From a virus: 27,699 nucleotides of DNA. Below are positions 4,347-12,404 of this stretch, piece by piece. The stretch lies in IMG/VR virus record IMGVR_UViG_3300009529_000037, positions 1 to 27,699 of that record. One strand, given 5' to 3'. A program made the translations under genes and the position numbers. Positions within the stretch are counted from its first letter, which is position 1. Each line of letters opens with the position of its first letter. A model generated the notes under the pieces. The model ran no database searches. It saw only the letters and a list, made by a program, of their open reading frames with translations, and was not told the DNA's origin.

Positions 4347-4777
4347 AATATGCCACCATCGAAGACCTCGATGCCATAATGGACATCGTGAAAAAATACC
4401 GAAAAACAGTTTTTCCCTATTTTCGAGAGGACAAATTAAAAGAAAAAATACAGCGATCGGAAGTCATGCTCGATAAACAAACGTTTATCATTTTCGGTAC
4501 ATATCGAAAACGAACTTGGTTGGGTGAGGTATGTGCTCATAAAGGAGATATGGCAATCCACGAAATTGGCACTGAGGAACAAGGTTCTGGTTGTGCGCAC
4601 GATGTCTTGGCCGAGTTCATCGACAATTTTTCTGGAAAAAAGATATGGTTGACTGTGCGCAAAGAAAACGAGCGAGCAGTTCGATTCTATATAAAACACG
4701 AATTTGAAATAGTGGGAGGTATTCTGTGGTCGGATGGAAAGTTGCCGGGTTGCGTAATGATGAGGAGTCCAAAATGA
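4343..4777 (+). CDS. GNAT-family N-acetyltransferase
   Basis: A 144-residue GNAT-fold acyltransferase. The acetyl-CoA pyrophosphate-binding loop is visible as EEQGSGCA (78-85), followed by helix HDVLAEFID. The later motif TVRKENERAVRFYIKHEF (104-121) matches the conserved N-x-x-A-x-x-F/Y-Y segment of motif B. I chose the ATG at 4343 because it overlaps the methyltransferase stop as ATGA; a longer in-frame reading would lie wholly inside the methyltransferase. The acceptor cannot be read from sequence. Context between a DNA methyltransferase and an AdoMet decarboxylase suggests an amine acceptor: either a polyamine or an amino group placed on DNA. Phage Mu Mom, a DNA-modifying enzyme, also has a GNAT-type fold, which is a precedent for the fold acting on DNA, but this protein shows no clear Mom resemblance. 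Confidence 0.83.
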   Translation: MKYATIEDLDAIMDIVKKYRKTVFPYFREDKLKEKIQRSEVMLDKQTFIIFGTYRKRTWLGEVCAHKGDMAIHEIGTEEQGSGCAHDVLAEFIDNFSGKKIWLTVRKENERAVRFYIKHEFEIVGGILWSDGKLPGCVMMRSPK

Positions 4778-5094
4778 AGTTAGCTGAACATCTATTCATC
4801 ACAATAATCGGCGATGTCGCTGACGAACGGAAAACATTTCACACCCTGCTCGATGCGTGCCACAAAGCTAATGCGCGAGTGTGCGGGACCTCAAAGCACG
4901 AGTTCTATCCACGAGGGTTTTCAGCCATTGTACTCATCAGTGAGTCGCACGCAAGCGTCCACACCTGGCCGGAAAGCAACGTCGCGCTCGTGGATTTTTT
5001 TACTTGCGCAAACCCTACAGGATTCGATAATTTCATCGAAGCGTGGGAGGATGCGGGATACACAATTGCCACAAAAGAGGTGCTAAATCGATAA
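4774..5094 (+). CDS. speD: S-adenosylmethionine decarboxylase proenzyme (SpeD/SpeH-like)
   Basis: A 106-residue pyruvoyl-dependent decarboxylase of the short bacterial/archaeal AdoMet decarboxylase class. The signature ISESHASVHTWPE lies at 55-67. Self-cleavage is expected between Glu57 and Ser58, turning Ser58 into the pyruvoyl cofactor. His63 and Cys78 (in DFFTC) occupy the positions of the processing and catalytic residues of the Thermotoga enzyme. The family usually runs about 115-130 residues, so this is compact at both ends but complete in active-site residues. The product in the canonical reaction is decarboxylated AdoMet, the aminopropyl donor for spermidine synthesis. No aminopropyltransferase is in the window. 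ATG 4774 overlaps the GNAT stop and has AGGAG at 4763-4767. Some SpeD homologues decarboxylate ornithine or arginine instead, and this cannot be excluded here. Confidence 0.92.
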   Translation: MKLAEHLFITIIGDVADERKTFHTLLDACHKANARVCGTSKHEFYPRGFSAIVLISESHASVHTWPESNVALVDFFTCANPTGFDNFIEAWEDAGYTIATKEVLNR

Positions 5095-7154: not shown

Positions 7155-8589
7155 AATAGACTTCGGTGTAATCGGGTTCTCAGGTCTCAAAGAATACGGC
7201 GGATATATCGATGAAGAGTGGCACCCCAAACTTCGAGGTTATTACGGGCCGAAGTTGTATCGAGAAATGGGCGACAACAGCTCGGCAATCGGTGCTATCA
7301 AGTACATCATTCAAGCTCTCGTGCGGCAAGTCGAGTGGAGGGTTGAGCCCGCAGACGATTCGAAAGAAGCGCAAGAACAAGCAGAGTTTCTTGAAACGTG
7401 CGTAATCGATATGTCGATAACCTGGGAGGATTTCATCTCCGAGGTATTGAGTTTCCTTGAATATGGTTGGTCCTATTTTGAAATCATTTACAAGTTGCGT
7501 AAAGGGTTGGACACAAAAAACCCGAGGACACGCAGCCAGTTCGACGACGGCAAAATCGGTTGGAGGAAGCTGGCACTCCGGGCCCAGGATACTCTTGAGC
7601 GTTGGCAGTTTGACGAGGACGACAACGGCCTTCGCGGCATGCATCAATCGAGCGAGTACACAGGCAAAGCGGCGTTCATCCCTATCGAGAAGGCTTTGCT
7701 GTTTCGGACGGTGACTCGCAAAGACAATCCCGAAGGGCGCAGCATCTATCGTAACGCGGTCGTCGATTATTTCTATCTCAAGCGAATCAGCGAGATCGAG
7801 GCCATCGGCATCGAGCGCGATATGACCGGCTTGCTGACCATGGAAGTTCCTTTGCAGTTGCTTCATCCTGACGCTGATGCCAAGTCGGTCAGCCTTCGAT
7901 CGGCTTTCGAAAAGATGCTGTCCGAGTTGAAACGAGACGAGCGCGAATATGCTTTGGTTCCTCCTGAAATAGACAAAGACGGAAAGCCGACCGGATACAA
8001 ACTCAAACTTCTGAGTTCAGGCGGTCGTCGACAGATAGATACAAACGCGGTGAAGCTGTATTACAAGGTCGGCATCCTTCAATCAGTGCTCGCGCAGTTC
8101 ATCCAGCTCGGCATGAGCGGGGTCGGGTCGTTTGCTCTTGCATCGACTCAAACCGATATGTTCGCGGTGGCTCTCGGGTCGTACCTGAACACGATAGCGT
8201 CGGTCATCAATCGCTTCGGCGTATCGCGCTTGATGGCGGTCAACAGCGTAAAGCAAGATTTGTGGCCCGAGCTGGTTCACGGTGACATCGAGAGCCCGCC
8301 TCTTGCGGAGATAGGTGCATACGTGCAAGCGCTTGCTTCATCGGGTCAGTTGCCTGAAGATGAGGCCATACAACGCAAGCTTTTAGAGATCGCCAATCTG
8401 CCGATGCCCGAGAAAGAAGAAGGAGAGAAGGCAGAGAAACAGAAAAAGTCTAAAGGCGGGTTTGTACGAAAAGTAATACCTGGTCTTCACCTCGTACAAC
8501 CTTCTGGAAAATGCCCGTATTGCGGCAAGCCGGTACGAGGTAAACCAGAGCGATGTCCTCATTGCGATAGGTCATTAGTGGCAGCATGA
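7147..8589 (+). CDS. Portal protein, Mu gp29/DUF935-like, with C-terminal zinc ribbon
   Basis: A 480-residue portal that forms the DNA channel at the head vertex. Recognisable stretches are the N-terminal GPKLYREMGDNSSAIGAI, the ITWEDFISEVLSFLEYGWSYFEI region and the central RISEIEAIGIERDMTG, all in the pattern of DUF935 portals. I start it at ATG 7147 (GGGAG seven bases upstream) rather than the TTG at 7141. The tail is unusual: CPYC at 456-459 and CPHC at 470-473, separated by 10 residues rich in Lys, Arg, Gly and Pro, make a typical zinc ribbon that Mu-type portals do not normally carry. It follows a Lys/Glu-rich linker (about 423-436). The ribbon might contact DNA, the terminase or a head protein. 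Confidence 0.9.
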   Translation: MSKIDFGVIGFSGLKEYGGYIDEEWHPKLRGYYGPKLYREMGDNSSAIGAIKYIIQALVRQVEWRVEPADDSKEAQEQAEFLETCVIDMSITWEDFISEVLSFLEYGWSYFEIIYKLRKGLDTKNPRTRSQFDDGKIGWRKLALRAQDTLERWQFDEDDNGLRGMHQSSEYTGKAAFIPIEKALLFRTVTRKDNPEGRSIYRNAVVDYFYLKRISEIEAIGIERDMTGLLTMEVPLQLLHPDADAKSVSLRSAFEKMLSELKRDEREYALVPPEIDKDGKPTGYKLKLLSSGGRRQIDTNAVKLYYKVGILQSVLAQFIQLGMSGVGSFALASTQTDMFAVALGSYLNTIASVINRFGVSRLMAVNSVKQDLWPELVHGDIESPPLAEIGAYVQALASSGQLPEDEAIQRKLLEIANLPMPEKEEGEKAEKQKKSKGGFVRKVIPGLHLVQPSGKCPYCGKPVRGKPERCPHCDRSLVAA

Positions 8590-10394
8590 CTTTCGTTCAG
8601 TACTACAAACACGAGCGCATATTAAAAGCTCGACGTAAAAGAAAACCAGAATGGCAGAAGCGTCTGCCTCATGATACTCCGGCCGGTCGCGAGGCATACG
8701 CGATAGCGGCGAAGCACGAGAACAAATTCGCGCGCGCGTTTTTAGAAGCGACACAATCGCTTCTCACCAACAGAATAGCGGCGGATTTTAACGCGGTATG
8801 GCGAGCGGGCGGCGGGCCTGAGAAAGTCATGGCGACGTTGCCTTTCTTCGGCACGGACATCAAACCGGAAGTGTGGGACGATTTCATCGAGCGCATATTG
8901 AAAGCATATTCAGCAGTGATTCAAGAAGCAGGCGAAGAAAACACTGAGGAGATGAATCGCAAATTCCGAACGAACATGAAGTTCTCGCTCGAAGATAAAG
9001 AAGAAATTCCAGTCGTGCCTATCAACCCATACTCGATAGAATGGGTTCGCAATCGTTCATTAGAACTTGCGAAGCAAGGCATCTCCGACCAGCAACGCGA
9101 GGTAGTGCGCGACATCATTGATCGCGGGTTTTCTGAAGGCGTGCGTGCTGAAGAAGCATACGGCGCGATAAAGAAAAATATTGGTTTGACTCATCGCGAA
9201 TACAACGCAGTTATCAACCGCGAAATAATGCTCGAAGAAGCGGGATGGGCCGATGCCGACGTGAAACACCTGACTGAGAAATATCGTGATGAGCTTTTAG
9301 GAAAACGAGCGATGCGCATTGCGCGAACCGAAACGATGTTTGCTCAAGCACAAGGGCGGAATGCCAGTTGGCAGATGGCGCAAGATTCGGGCATTTTGCC
9401 TCCCGTCGTGCGCGAGTGGGTAGCAGTGCCAGGCGCGTGCGAAATATGTGGAGAGCTTGATGGACAGGAAGCACCGGTGGGCGGGGCGTATGAGAGCACT
9501 GAGGGTCCGGTTGAGTCTCCCCCCGCTCATCCGAACTGTTTACCGGGGGACGCGGCAGTATTGGCCTCGGGAGTTTCGGCCTCGAGTAAACGTTGGTACG
9601 ATGGAGATTTGGTCATCTTGACTACTGCCCTGGGCAACAAGCTCGCCTGCACCCCGAATCATCCTATACTCACAATGAGTGGGTGGAAAGCTGCGCATTT
9701 GCTTAACGTAGGAGATGACGTAATCAGTTACATCGGAGGAGAGAGCGTGCCCTCTTCTTGGTTCGGACATAATCAAAAGAACATGCCAGTCGTTCGAGAT
9801 AAGATATCGAATCTTGCGAAGAAGCTGGGTTTGACGTCGTCCGTACCAGTGCCAGGAACCTCCAAGGATTTCCACGGCGACGGGAACGATGCCGATGTCA
9901 CAATTATACGGACCAAGAGCTTGTTGTGGTCGAACTTCAAGTCCTCGTTGTTCAAGCATTTTGGCAAACTCAAGTTCTTCAGTCGTCGCATGAGTGAGAT
10001 GCTTTTCGCATGTAAACGCTCTTTTAAGTTTCTCTTCATGAGTTCGCGGCTTGCCTCGAACGGCATCATGAGCAGCCTTTGCTCTTTGCAGCCGTTCGCT
10101 TTTGCTCAGGCTTTGCATGTAGATTCTACCGGCTTCGCTTTGCCCTCGAATGCAAATTCCTTTGATTTTGAGAAGTCGCCGAATAACATTCCGGCTGACG
10201 CCCCAGATTTTAGCCAACGACTTCTCGCTAGTTCCAGCGATATAGTCGCCGACAATGTCATCAATGTGGATGTCCAAAGATTTTCTGGCCATGTGTATAA
10301 CCTCCAATGTTTGTCTGGTTACTATATATCACAAAACATAATTAGCCACAACTGCGCGTGTACTGAAATCTTGAAAAGAGCGAAAGGGCGATGA
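8586..10394 (+). CDS. Mu gpF-like head morphogenesis protein containing an intein
   Basis: The 602-codon frame encodes a minor head protein of the Mu gpF/SPP1 gp7 family, needed in early head assembly and found beside the portal. Typical parts are RAMRIARTETMFAQAQGRNA, CEICGELDGQEAPVGG and PPAHPN. The family's C-terminal HPNCxC motif is split: HPN ends at residue 317, a 272-residue intein occupies 318-589, and CACTEILKRAKGR follows. After splicing the protein would be 330 residues, a normal length, with HPNCAC restored. The gene overlaps the portal stop (ATGA). The frame is uninterrupted through the intein, so splicing happens at the protein level. Confidence 0.92.
   Translation: MTFVQYYKHERILKARRKRKPEWQKRLPHDTPAGREAYAIAAKHENKFARAFLEATQSLLTNRIAADFNAVWRAGGGPEKVMATLPFFGTDIKPEVWDDFIERILKAYSAVIQEAGEENTEEMNRKFRTNMKFSLEDKEEIPVVPINPYSIEWVRNRSLELAKQGISDQQREVVRDIIDRGFSEGVRAEEAYGAIKKNIGLTHREYNAVINREIMLEEAGWADADVKHLTEKYRDELLGKRAMRIARTETMFAQAQGRNASWQMAQDSGILPPVVREWVAVPGACEICGELDGQEAPVGGAYESTEGPVESPPAHPNCLPGDAAVLASGVSASSKRWYDGDLVILTTALGNKLACTPNHPILTMSGWKAAHLLNVGDDVISYIGGESVPSSWFGHNQKNMPVVRDKISNLAKKLGLTSSVPVPGTSKDFHGDGNDADVTIIRTKSLLWSNFKSSLFKHFGKLKFFSRRMSEMLFACKRSFKFLFMSSRLASNGIMSSLCSLQPFAFAQALHVDSTGFALPSNANSFDFEKSPNNIPADAPDFSQRLLASSSDIVADNVINVDVQRFSGHVYNLQCLSGYYISQNIISHNCACTEILKRAKGR
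9540..10292 (-). CDS. Antisense Vsr-like (EDxHD) homing endonuclease nested in the intein
   Basis: A 250-residue protein encoded on the strand opposite the intein. ATG 10292-10290 is preceded by GGAGG (complement of 10301-10305), eight bases away, so the longer TTG start at 10307 is not needed. Residues about 24-44 (KSLAKIWGVSRNVIRRLLKIK) form a helix-turn-helix. Residues 105-180 follow the Vsr-like fold: TEELEFAKMLEQRGLEV, then CDIGIVPVAVEILGGSWHW with Asp132, Glu141 and His148 as likely catalytic residues, then RKIRYLISNDWHVLLI. This matches the EDxHD homing endonucleases first noted in introns and fractured intein genes of phages. It would cut intein-free copies of the head gene and drive spread of the intein. 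Its stop codon (TTA on the plus strand, 9540-9542) abuts intein Cys1, and its codons lie in exact register with the sense codons. Confidence 0.85.
   Translation of the reverse strand: MARKSLDIHIDDIVGDYIAGTSEKSLAKIWGVSRNVIRRLLKIKGICIRGQSEAGRIYMQSLSKSERLQRAKAAHDAVRGKPRTHEEKLKRAFTCEKHLTHATTEELEFAKMLEQRGLEVRPQQALGPYNCDIGIVPVAVEILGGSWHWYGRRQTQLLRKIRYLISNDWHVLLIMSEPRRGHALSSDVTDYVISYVKQMRSFPPTHCEYRMIRGAGELVAQGSSQDDQISIVPTFTRGRNSRGQYCRVPR
10323..10351 (-). promoter_or_regulatory. Candidate antisense promoter for the nested endonuclease
   Basis: On the minus strand TTGTGG (plus 10351-10346) is followed after 17 bases by TATATA (plus 10328-10323), preceded by TGA so that it forms an extended -10 (TGnTATA). 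Transcription would start near 10316, about 24 bases before the endonuclease ATG, leaving room for the GGAGG site. The promoter lies in the codons of the intein's last block, so the whole expression unit is inside the intein. The -35 match is weak. Confidence 0.4.
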
Positions 10395-10397
10395 CCA

Positions 10398-12404
10398 ATG
10401 CCTGAGTTCACACGAGAATTTTTAGAAGAAGTATATCGATTAGCAAAGAAGACATTGCCGGGCTGGGCGTATGCGACACTGCGCGCGCAGGCCAGGGCGG
10501 TATCGGGCGGGCGTGCAGCGCACCGAACGGATATTCCTAATGTGTTCGAGAAGGTATCGTTAGGAGTATTGAATTCCGAATCGATGAAGGACTTGTCCGA
10601 TGTTGAGGTGAAGGCCATTTGGGATCGATTGAACCAGTGGCACGCCAACGCCTTGAAGAAGAAAGGGCCGACCGATGTCCTTGTAACTGCTGCTCGTTCG
10701 GTGTTCGACATCATCCAAGATCGGAATATCAAATTCAAATCAAGCCCTTTGTGTGACCTGTTAGAGACTCCTGACAACATACCTGACGTAAAGAAATTGG
10801 TAGCATTTCTACCGATGACGGGTCCGGACGGGGCGTCGATAGCTTTTGTCGGTGCTTCTCCAAGCAAAATAGAGATCGCTCGGAATGAACCGTATGTTGG
10901 GCCGATTCGCAAGACATTCGAATCCAAATACCTGGTTCCTCTCGAGGTGGCTCGTGATGAAGTGATATTGGGGTATGCATGCCCTGAAGCATTCGCCGGA
11001 GAAAAAGGAAAAGTTAGAGAGCCGACCGATGAAGAGATAGCGATTTGGAAAGATTGGCTGTTCGACGAGCTCGACAAGGCGAGACCTCAAATTGTTATTG
11101 CTCTGGGACAGACCGCGCGCAAAGCGTTAGGCGATCGTGCTGATTTTGTCATGCCTCACCCATCTGCGGTAGACCGATTCGGAGATTCGGGAGAAGTCGC
11201 ACGCAAGATTAAACGCATCAAAGAGGCTTTATCCGATATTGAGAAGGCCGACCTCGGTGCAAAATGGTTCGAGATTTTTCCGAAAAGCGGCAAAGGTAAG
11301 TTCTCGTATCAGCATCATTGGCGAGGGCTCAGCGAAGATGAGACAAAATTATCTGATAAAGAATTGCTTGCTACAGATCATTCTTTACACGGGGACTTGA
11401 GGTTGGGCGGGGACAAAGGTCTTTGGGGTTGGACGATATTCCTGGGGGAGACAAAAGAGAATCGTGGGAAGGATGGCGATAAATTCATTTCGATGAAGCC
11501 TGGTGGCAGTTTGCGAGTTACGCCGAAGACGATTCATCCAGAAGAATGGCTTCGGGTCGGGTCGCAATTGGCTGGTCAAATAAACAAACCAGGAGAGCCG
11601 GGTTCGGGTCCTGAATCGCATTCAAAATTCTTTGTAGAGGATTCTGGGACGTACGAATTGGGAGTGGCGACAGAGCACTCTATTGAAATTTTCCTTGACG
11701 GCAAGCATTTAAATGGTAAATATTTGTTAATATATCCTCGATTAGGCGGGGAGCGAGTTTGGCTGATTGACAAGCCGAAATCTCAAACGCCGCGAGCCGA
11801 GGAAGAAAAACTCGCTGATGTCATAAGCGAGCAGCGCAAGAAGGGGCGGCAATATGTCGTCTGGGCAAAGCCGGGAATGAAACCGGTTTTATACAACACG
11901 CGCTCTGGCGAAGTGGTCAAAGGCGAAATGATTCCCATCTCGAAAGCAGATCCCCTCAAAAAGATTGTCTACGGCATTGTTGCCGATCCCTATGGCGTCC
12001 GAGGTGCCCAGGCCGATGCACATGATGACTGGATGATGCCATCCACTGTCGAAGGCATGGCGCACGATTACATCGGAAAAGACATGGTGATCGGGTTTCA
12101 ACACAATAAAAAAGCTGATGCTTGTCCCGTAGAAAGTTGGGTCGAACAGTATCCCAGCCCAGAGGATTATCTCAAGGCGATGAAGGGTGAACCGCATAAA
12201 GTCTATCGACGTAAATTCGGAGATGACGTGATTCATTCAGGTTCATGGGGTCTTGGTGTTCGACTCGGCGAAAAAGAGTGGGGTGCTTACGAGAAAGGCG
12301 AAATCAATGCGTTCAGCCCGGGCGGGCTGGGTCTTCGCACGCCTATCACTCCATCTCAAATGCCGAAGGTCGAGTTCATCGATCTTGTACCGAAAGGAAT
12401 CTAA
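10398..12404 (+). CDS. Fusion protein: UDG-like domain, LigD phosphoesterase-like domain, XkdF-like prohead protease
   Basis: A 668-residue multidomain head gene. Residues about 133-278 resemble family 4/5 uracil-DNA glycosylases: IAFVGASPSK (148-157), EPYVGP (164-169), RPQIVIALG (229-237) and MPHPSA (252-257). The cysteines that hold the iron-sulfur cluster in family 4 are not evident. Residues about 300-460 resemble the 3'-phosphoesterase domain of LigD: FSYQHHW (302-308), DHSLHGDLRL (327-336) and VWLIDKP. Residues about 517-650 match the XkdF/S78_2 putative phage serine protease: IVYGIVADPYG (523-533), QADAHDDWM (538-546), VIGFQHN (564-570) and INAFSPGGLG (636-645). The protease would mature the prohead. 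The two DNA-repair-like domains in a capsid gene are unusual. N-terminal residues 1-130 are helical and unassigned. Confidence 0.78.
   Translation: MPEFTREFLEEVYRLAKKTLPGWAYATLRAQARAVSGGRAAHRTDIPNVFEKVSLGVLNSESMKDLSDVEVKAIWDRLNQWHANALKKKGPTDVLVTAARSVFDIIQDRNIKFKSSPLCDLLETPDNIPDVKKLVAFLPMTGPDGASIAFVGASPSKIEIARNEPYVGPIRKTFESKYLVPLEVARDEVILGYACPEAFAGEKGKVREPTDEEIAIWKDWLFDELDKARPQIVIALGQTARKALGDRADFVMPHPSAVDRFGDSGEVARKIKRIKEALSDIEKADLGAKWFEIFPKSGKGKFSYQHHWRGLSEDETKLSDKELLATDHSLHGDLRLGGDKGLWGWTIFLGETKENRGKDGDKFISMKPGGSLRVTPKTIHPEEWLRVGSQLAGQINKPGEPGSGPESHSKFFVEDSGTYELGVATEHSIEIFLDGKHLNGKYLLIYPRLGGERVWLIDKPKSQTPRAEEEKLADVISEQRKKGRQYVVWAKPGMKPVLYNTRSGEVVKGEMIPISKADPLKKIVYGIVADPYGVRGAQADAHDDWMMPSTVEGMAHDYIGKDMVIGFQHNKKADACPVESWVEQYPSPEDYLKAMKGEPHKVYRRKFGDDVIHSGSWGLGVRLGEKEWGAYEKGEINAFSPGGLGLRTPITPSQMPKVEFIDLVPKGI

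Follow-up and report, generated by a model that had tools for sequence, protein, structure and literature searches.

A predicted homing endonuclease gene antisense to the intein of a phage head morphogenesis gene, with start signals in the C-terminal splicing block

Inteins that carry an in-frame homing endonuclease domain are self-splicing, mobile at the DNA level, and encode their endonuclease inside the element. A different arrangement, the fractured gene, was reportedly described by Dassa and colleagues in 2009; it is said to consist of split inteins with a free-standing Vsr-related endonuclease between the two halves.

Endonuclease genes overlapping or opposing other elements have been described elsewhere. 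In the ShiLan domain, a phage methylase conceals an HNH endonuclease in another reading frame (PMC11855218), and some group I introns, such as Didymium squamulosum L2066, carry their homing endonuclease gene in antisense, an own promoter having been proposed and expression shown (PMC9548176). The EDxHD homing endonucleases, including I-Bth0305I, have also been described (PMC3943268). In turn, the intein of phage Snoke has been reported, the available text of that report making no mention of an antisense gene (PMC6776784). In the literature searched, mostly at the level of titles and abstracts, no intein with an antisense endonuclease was found; a 2025 preprint by Gosselin on actinophage inteins may overlap with this subject.

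Here we describe an intein in a stretch of viral DNA of 27,699 nucleotides (IMG/VR record IMGVR_UViG_3300009529_000037), hereafter called the window. Taken together, the evidence makes it very likely that this is a mobile intein with an antisense endonuclease expressed from its C-terminal block.

The intein and the gene opposite to it

The head gene, its intein and the opposing gene are organized as follows, with the evidence in brackets.

8586-10394, plus strand: MuF-like head morphogenesis gene, 602 aa, split in frame by the intein (PF14890, PF04233, PHROG)
9537-10352, plus strand: intein, 272 aa, from Cys1 to His271-Asn272 and followed by Cys+1 (sequence, PF14890)
9537-9734, plus strand: N-terminal splicing half, residues 1-66 (AlphaFold block means 80-98)
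9735-10241, plus strand: sense linker, residues 67-235 (AlphaFold confidence mostly low; the DNA mainly encodes the endonuclease opposite)
10242-10352, plus strand: C-terminal splicing half, residues 236-272 (AlphaFold block means 85-98 for residues 241-272)
9540-10292, minus strand: predicted homing endonuclease gene, 250 aa plus TAA (homologues, profile, predicted fold)
9867-9881, minus strand: VAVEI strand of the endonuclease, with the invariant Glu141 (alignment, sequence)

The product of the head gene matches the Pfam families Intein_splicing (PF14890, 4.8e-9) and Phage_Mu_F (PF04233, 3.5e-6), as well as PHROG head-morphogenesis families. The insertion site is HPN/CAC of the MuF motif (the slash marks the junction), Cys1 being encoded at 9537-9539, Asn272 at 10350-10352 and Cys+1 at 10353. 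This in-frame insert, with a nucleophilic first residue and a Cys after its C-terminal Asn, is a Hint-type intein as judged from its sequence, splicing itself being predicted. In the AlphaFold model of the sense intein, based on 42 sequences, only the two terminal splicing halves are confident and the middle lies mostly at about 60 or lower; within the linker, the block means are mostly 33-63 and reach 77 only at residues 231-240. On this evidence, the middle resembles a linker dictated by the gene on the opposite strand.

Some observations concern annotation and neighbouring genes. The family phrog_15127, labelled as a head protein, matches the intein part in several loci and may thus annotate inteins as head proteins. 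The gene that follows the MuF gene (10398-12404) carries uracil-DNA glycosylase and XkdF-type protease domains (PF03167, PF14550), and an S-adenosylmethionine decarboxylase is encoded at 4774-5094 (PF02675, 5.3e-20).

On the opposite strand, an open reading frame begins with an ATG at 10292 and runs in codon-on-codon register with the intein down to a TAA stop (9540-9542) that faces intein Leu2. Its product is predicted to consist of an N-terminal helical, helix-turn-helix (HTH) region followed by a Vsr-like nuclease domain. A tblastn search with this protein gave matches in 129 of 50,697 phage records, 122 of them covering at least 80% of the query, and also in two plasmid records; the overlapped feature, where the phage records name it, is in most cases a head or minor capsid gene. 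Scans of viral contigs with exact peptide patterns from the single protein gave no relative, the queries being probably too divergent. In none of the 17 annotated loci having the overlap is an endonuclease gene annotated on the opposite strand.

Several layers of evidence point to the nature of the antisense product. A profile of 58 relatives, compared with solved structures, matches the endonuclease-like 3hrl (9.8e-7) and I-Bth0305I (3r3p_A, 1.4e-5). Among these 58 relatives, Pfam matches are to MTES_1575 (41), resolvase HTH_7 (30), HTH_58 (27) and Vsr (2), the window endonuclease's own MTES_1575 match (0.0033) falling below the curated cut-off. AlphaFold predicts the protein with pLDDT 92.6 and pTM 0.78, with helices across residues 10-115 which, together with the HTH_7 and HTH_58 matches of the relatives, indicate a DNA-binding region linked to the nuclease. 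In VIA-align, Vsr ranks first (Z 11.7) and I-Bth0305I (3r3p) third (Z 9.8); the Vsr-like catalytic fold is thus indicated by profile and VIA-align, while Foldseek E-values are weak, the best being 2.2e-3. Four residues (E106, Y129, D132 and E141) are invariant in 19 sequences. Altogether, the antisense frame probably encodes a homing endonuclease similar to Vsr and I-Bth0305I, as judged from these profiles and models. As a side observation, reading the complement of the VAVEI codons yields exactly DFHGD, a sense peptide recurrent in these inteins; this shadow motif may mislead the annotation of the sense strand.

Both frames are kept open well beyond this locus. We assembled 158 loci: the window, 19 annotated loci and 138 from viral and genome contigs, one search contributing its best 80 out of 249. 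All but one of them (157) keep the in-register sense frame open over the full length of the endonuclease match, with zero TTA, CTA or TCA in 39,001 codons; the other two sense registers of the same loci hold means of 18 and 8 of these triplets. The head gene is accordingly not broken into two open reading frames by the endonuclease gene, and in the window it is continuous over its 602 aa. The lone exception, from Acinetobacter phage IME285, contains 12 TTA/CTA/TCA in 297 codons. For the quantitative comparisons, one locus was kept per cluster at 60% identity, and four of the 157 overlapping loci, without a match to the C-terminal block, were dropped, which left 106 of 109 clusters. In the endonuclease frame of these 106 loci, TTA, CTA and TCA account for none of 3,949 Leu and Ser codons, against 614 expected from codon usage.

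The endonuclease stop lies near the first intein codons in nearly all of the approximately 40 loci listed, although in one of them (L041) the frame may extend further; in another locus (L145) the open stretch on the sense strand is short, at 86 aa. When the sense intein was used as the query, the antisense frame was present in all of the best 80 of 494, on contigs partly shared with the first set. No decayed member appeared among these 80, the ranking by full-length match favouring intact ones. Furthermore, in 25 related pairs, substitutions in the overlap are distributed over sense codon positions 1, 2 and 3 as 46, 19 and 35%, compared with 29, 23 and 48% in the N-extein. The peak at sense position 1 means that the antisense third position is the freest. 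Two of the pairs (L013/L109 and L106/L107) are duplicate phages, one of which recurs in a third pair, and the pattern is independent of them.

Putative expression signals within the C-terminal splicing block

The C-terminal splicing half of the window intein contains, on the minus strand, the following elements.

10290-10292, minus strand: start codon ATG, facing intein His252 (CAT)
10301-10305, minus strand: Shine-Dalgarno sequence GGAGG, opposite Asn255-Leu256-Gln257 (AAC CTC CAA)
10321-10328, minus strand: -10 region, TATAGT (10321-10326, the register of the relatives) overlapping TATATA (10323-10328, the register first proposed)
10346-10351, minus strand: weak -35-like TTGTGG, 17 nt before TATATA (not above the synonymous null)

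The original prediction, made from the window, had placed the ATG on the complement of the His252 codon and a perfect GGAGG eight bases upstream, and the sequence bears out both; the spacer of 8 nt reads TTATACAC. It had also proposed a promoter with an extended -10 at 10323-10351. The complement of this segment does read TTGTGG-N17-TATATA, with a TG one base before TATATA, but in the window it does not rise above a null in which the peptide is kept and its codons are shuffled among synonyms according to local usage. By this measure the Shine-Dalgarno sequence of the window alone is suggestive (p ~0.10), while the -10 element (p ~0.64) and the full -35/-10 score (p ~0.58) are not significant. 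In the register of the relatives, the -10 element is better read as TATAGT, which ends 28 nt before the ATG. The claim of a promoter in the window thus rests on its position and on the relatives. In addition, the other genes identified in the window are all on the plus strand, which makes it plausible that the endonuclease would have a promoter of its own.

Among the relatives, the signals are kept beyond what the amino acids require. The start site faces a His in 84 of the 106 loci, encoded by CAT in 75 and by CAC, which gives GTG, in 9; local codon usage would predict 37.2 CAT (z 8.8). At the nearby penultimate splicing His (HN/C), used as a control, CAT is at chance level (28 of 61, 26.9 expected). 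In the remaining 22 loci the residue is not His (one has CAA, giving TTG, and the other 21 lack such a start), so that the start there must lie elsewhere or use a weaker codon. The Leu facing the Shine-Dalgarno sequence is CTC in 73 of 93 cases (19.9 expected, z 14.2), and in 12 of 19 even in GC-poor phages, where 1.4 would be expected. Upstream, 43 of the 106 loci have TATAAT and 20 have TGnTATAAT, where synonymous shuffling predicts 9.5 and 1.1. With clustering at 40% identity (35 clusters) the signals are still kept: CAT in 24 of 25, CTC in 23 of 29 and TATAAT in 14 of 35.

The scores of the -10 element follow the same trend, with 7.68 on the antisense strand against 4.83 for the null (t 14.6). 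Three controls show no excess: the sense strand (t 0.1), the interior of the intein (t 0.7) and the C-extein, whose score in 58 loci falls below the null (t -4.0). When the -35 element is included, two of the 106 loci being left out, the score is 9.89 against 6.18 (t 13.7, n = 104) and 51 of the 104 loci reach p < 0.05; in this full score the sense-strand control shows a small excess of its own (5.99 against 5.44, t 3.4). Moreover, the best -10 sites stand at fixed distances from the ATG, 45 nt in 44 of the 106 loci and 26-30 nt in 40, and 11 loci hold TTGAC(A/T)-N15-18-TATA(A/G)T.

This codon excess in the relatives, with little or no excess in the sense-strand and shifted-region controls, indicates that the splicing block doubles as an expression cassette for the endonuclease. 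The idea that one short segment would serve both protein splicing and antisense expression is thereby supported, CAT, CTC and TATAAT all exceeding the synonymous null. The comparison of synonymous sites among relatives that had been suggested as a check favours the dual role: the start, Shine-Dalgarno and -10 bases are not free to vary, although the exact TATATA and TTGTGG of the window are not conserved. Likewise, the proposal that the mobile unit carries its own promoter gains from the -10 excess in relatives, but not from the window alone (p ~0.6).

Mobility, proposed mechanism and alternatives

A sign of mobility comes from the relative Snoke, whose intein occupies the same HPN/C site as that of the window. 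Snoke and K1ind2 have near-identical proteins around this site, and the 272-residue intein is cleanly absent from K1ind2 at AHPN/CRST. (The Snoke record, L003:2405-3034, gives an intein mature peptide of 630 bases and a note of 273 residues; 272 were found here.) Escherichia phage Ec1-ASingh (L014, 2063-4054) has an intein of this antisense architecture in the head gene that is also occupied in Snoke, but inserted at a different place (STTC ... KN/CRAR). Most C-terminal junctions read N/CxC, as in the MuF motif.

We propose that the intein is mobile and that its homing endonuclease, instead of being a domain of the spliced protein, is encoded by a gene of its own, which faces the intein codon on codon from the opposite strand. 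The head gene would give a precursor from which the intein splices out by means of its two terminal blocks, the long linker owing its existence mainly to the endonuclease that has to be encoded opposite to it. This enzyme would be transcribed from right to left by the host RNA polymerase, from a promoter at the C-terminal end of the intein, and translated from the Shine-Dalgarno sequence and ATG inside the C-terminal splicing block. Since promoter, Shine-Dalgarno sequence and ATG all lie within the intein, the whole cassette would move with it. In mixed infections the enzyme would cut intein-free MuF genes, leading to homing, and its antisense placement would free its timing from the schedule of the head gene. 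On a wider scale, it is likely that a widespread group of phage inteins are double-coding mobile elements, in which the C-terminal block has been shaped into the promoter and ribosome site of the endonuclease through the start His, the Shine-Dalgarno Leu and the -10 codons, the enzyme being expressible independently of the head gene.

Other explanations deserve consideration. The antisense frame could make no protein and be a fortuitous reflection of a genuine domain encoded by the sense strand. Indeed, a codon-on-codon antisense frame stays open fairly easily, and for the window endonuclease alone the probability of having no TTA, CTA or TCA (1.8e-3) is not negligible in a large scan; nevertheless, the confident antisense model with its Vsr-like match, set against the poorly modelled sense middle, and the antisense third position as the most variable in the overlap make this extremely improbable. 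It is further contradicted by the above-mentioned phage IME285 (L012, 455-1348 and 1342-2055), where a homologue of the endonuclease stands alone, opposite a closed sense frame, and converges on a MuF gene that appears to lack an intein; such an arrangement may possibly represent a stage before or after the overlap. As for the signals, they might be by-products of conserved C-terminal amino acids, expected in any intein with HVYNLQ. The values obtained for the Shine-Dalgarno and -10 elements of the window alone would fit, yet we hold this to be very unlikely given the excess of CAT, CTC, the Shine-Dalgarno sequence and TATAAT over synonymous shuffles across the set, also at 40% clustering, and given that ordinary inteins use CTC in only 4 of 25 Leu codons. 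None of these 35 distinct ordinary inteins has His at the start site, an absence that may partly reflect ancestry, of which the codon tests are independent, as the controls come from genome assemblies and lie outside the MuF clade. They were collected with a looser text pattern, profile picking having given 17 usable rows, 4 of them from this family.

A real endonuclease gene could also be transcribed by read-through from outside promoters, the embedded -10 mattering little. The weak promoter of the window is compatible with this, as are Klebsiella RCIP0015 (L005:422-2211) and Edwardsiella MSW-3 (L013:320-2180), where small genes oriented like that of the endonuclease extend as far as the intein and read-through from them could also express the endonuclease. 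However, the fixed distances of the -10 sites and their scores above the null, the 11 loci with the TTGAC(A/T) arrangement and the uniform plus orientation of the genes identified in the window render it unlikely. Finally, any antisense transcript would presumably overlap the host mRNA, and its main role might be to regulate the head gene, as antisense RNA or through transcriptional collision, rather than homing; since this leaves the conserved nuclease-like protein, its ATG and its Shine-Dalgarno sequence unexplained, we give it very little weight.

Significance and comparison with known systems

If this explanation is correct, a selfish element would leave its host protein by splicing and yet express its endonuclease on its own schedule, from a bacterial-type promoter hidden inside catalytic codons, in two genes overlapping on opposite strands. 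The loci form a large natural collection of genes overlapping in sense and antisense, each backed by evidence at the level of codons; the annotation of these head genes should change, and the expression of intein endonucleases becomes directly testable.

Like inteins with an in-frame endonuclease, the element of the window is a putatively self-splicing, mobile insert in a conserved gene, with the endonuclease encoded within it; unlike in them, the enzyme is encoded by the opposite strand, has start signals of its own and is no part of the spliced protein. With fractured genes it shares a Vsr-related endonuclease that accompanies phage inteins as a separate gene, but the intein of the window is unbroken in the sense frame, the endonuclease gene being superimposed on it and not inserted between two halves.

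The ShiLan domain is similar in that a hidden endonuclease frame overlaps an open insertion of a phage gene. Nonetheless, it is encoded on the same strand and is of the HNH type, no splicing domain having been found by its authors and no detectable ribosome-binding site having been reported in the account available (PMC11855218), whereas the element of the window has the opposite strand, a Vsr-like fold and the PF14890 splicing domain. I-Bth0305I (3r3p; PMC3943268) also combines a Vsr-like catalytic domain with a DNA-binding region in a phage setting; the endonuclease of the window differs in its sense/antisense overlap with an intein, and the likeness is one of fold and profile. The group I intron of Didymium squamulosum L2066 likewise has its endonuclease on the strand opposite to the spliced element, but this element is an RNA intron with the gene in a peripheral segment (PMC9548176), while the gene of the window overlaps a protein-coding frame.
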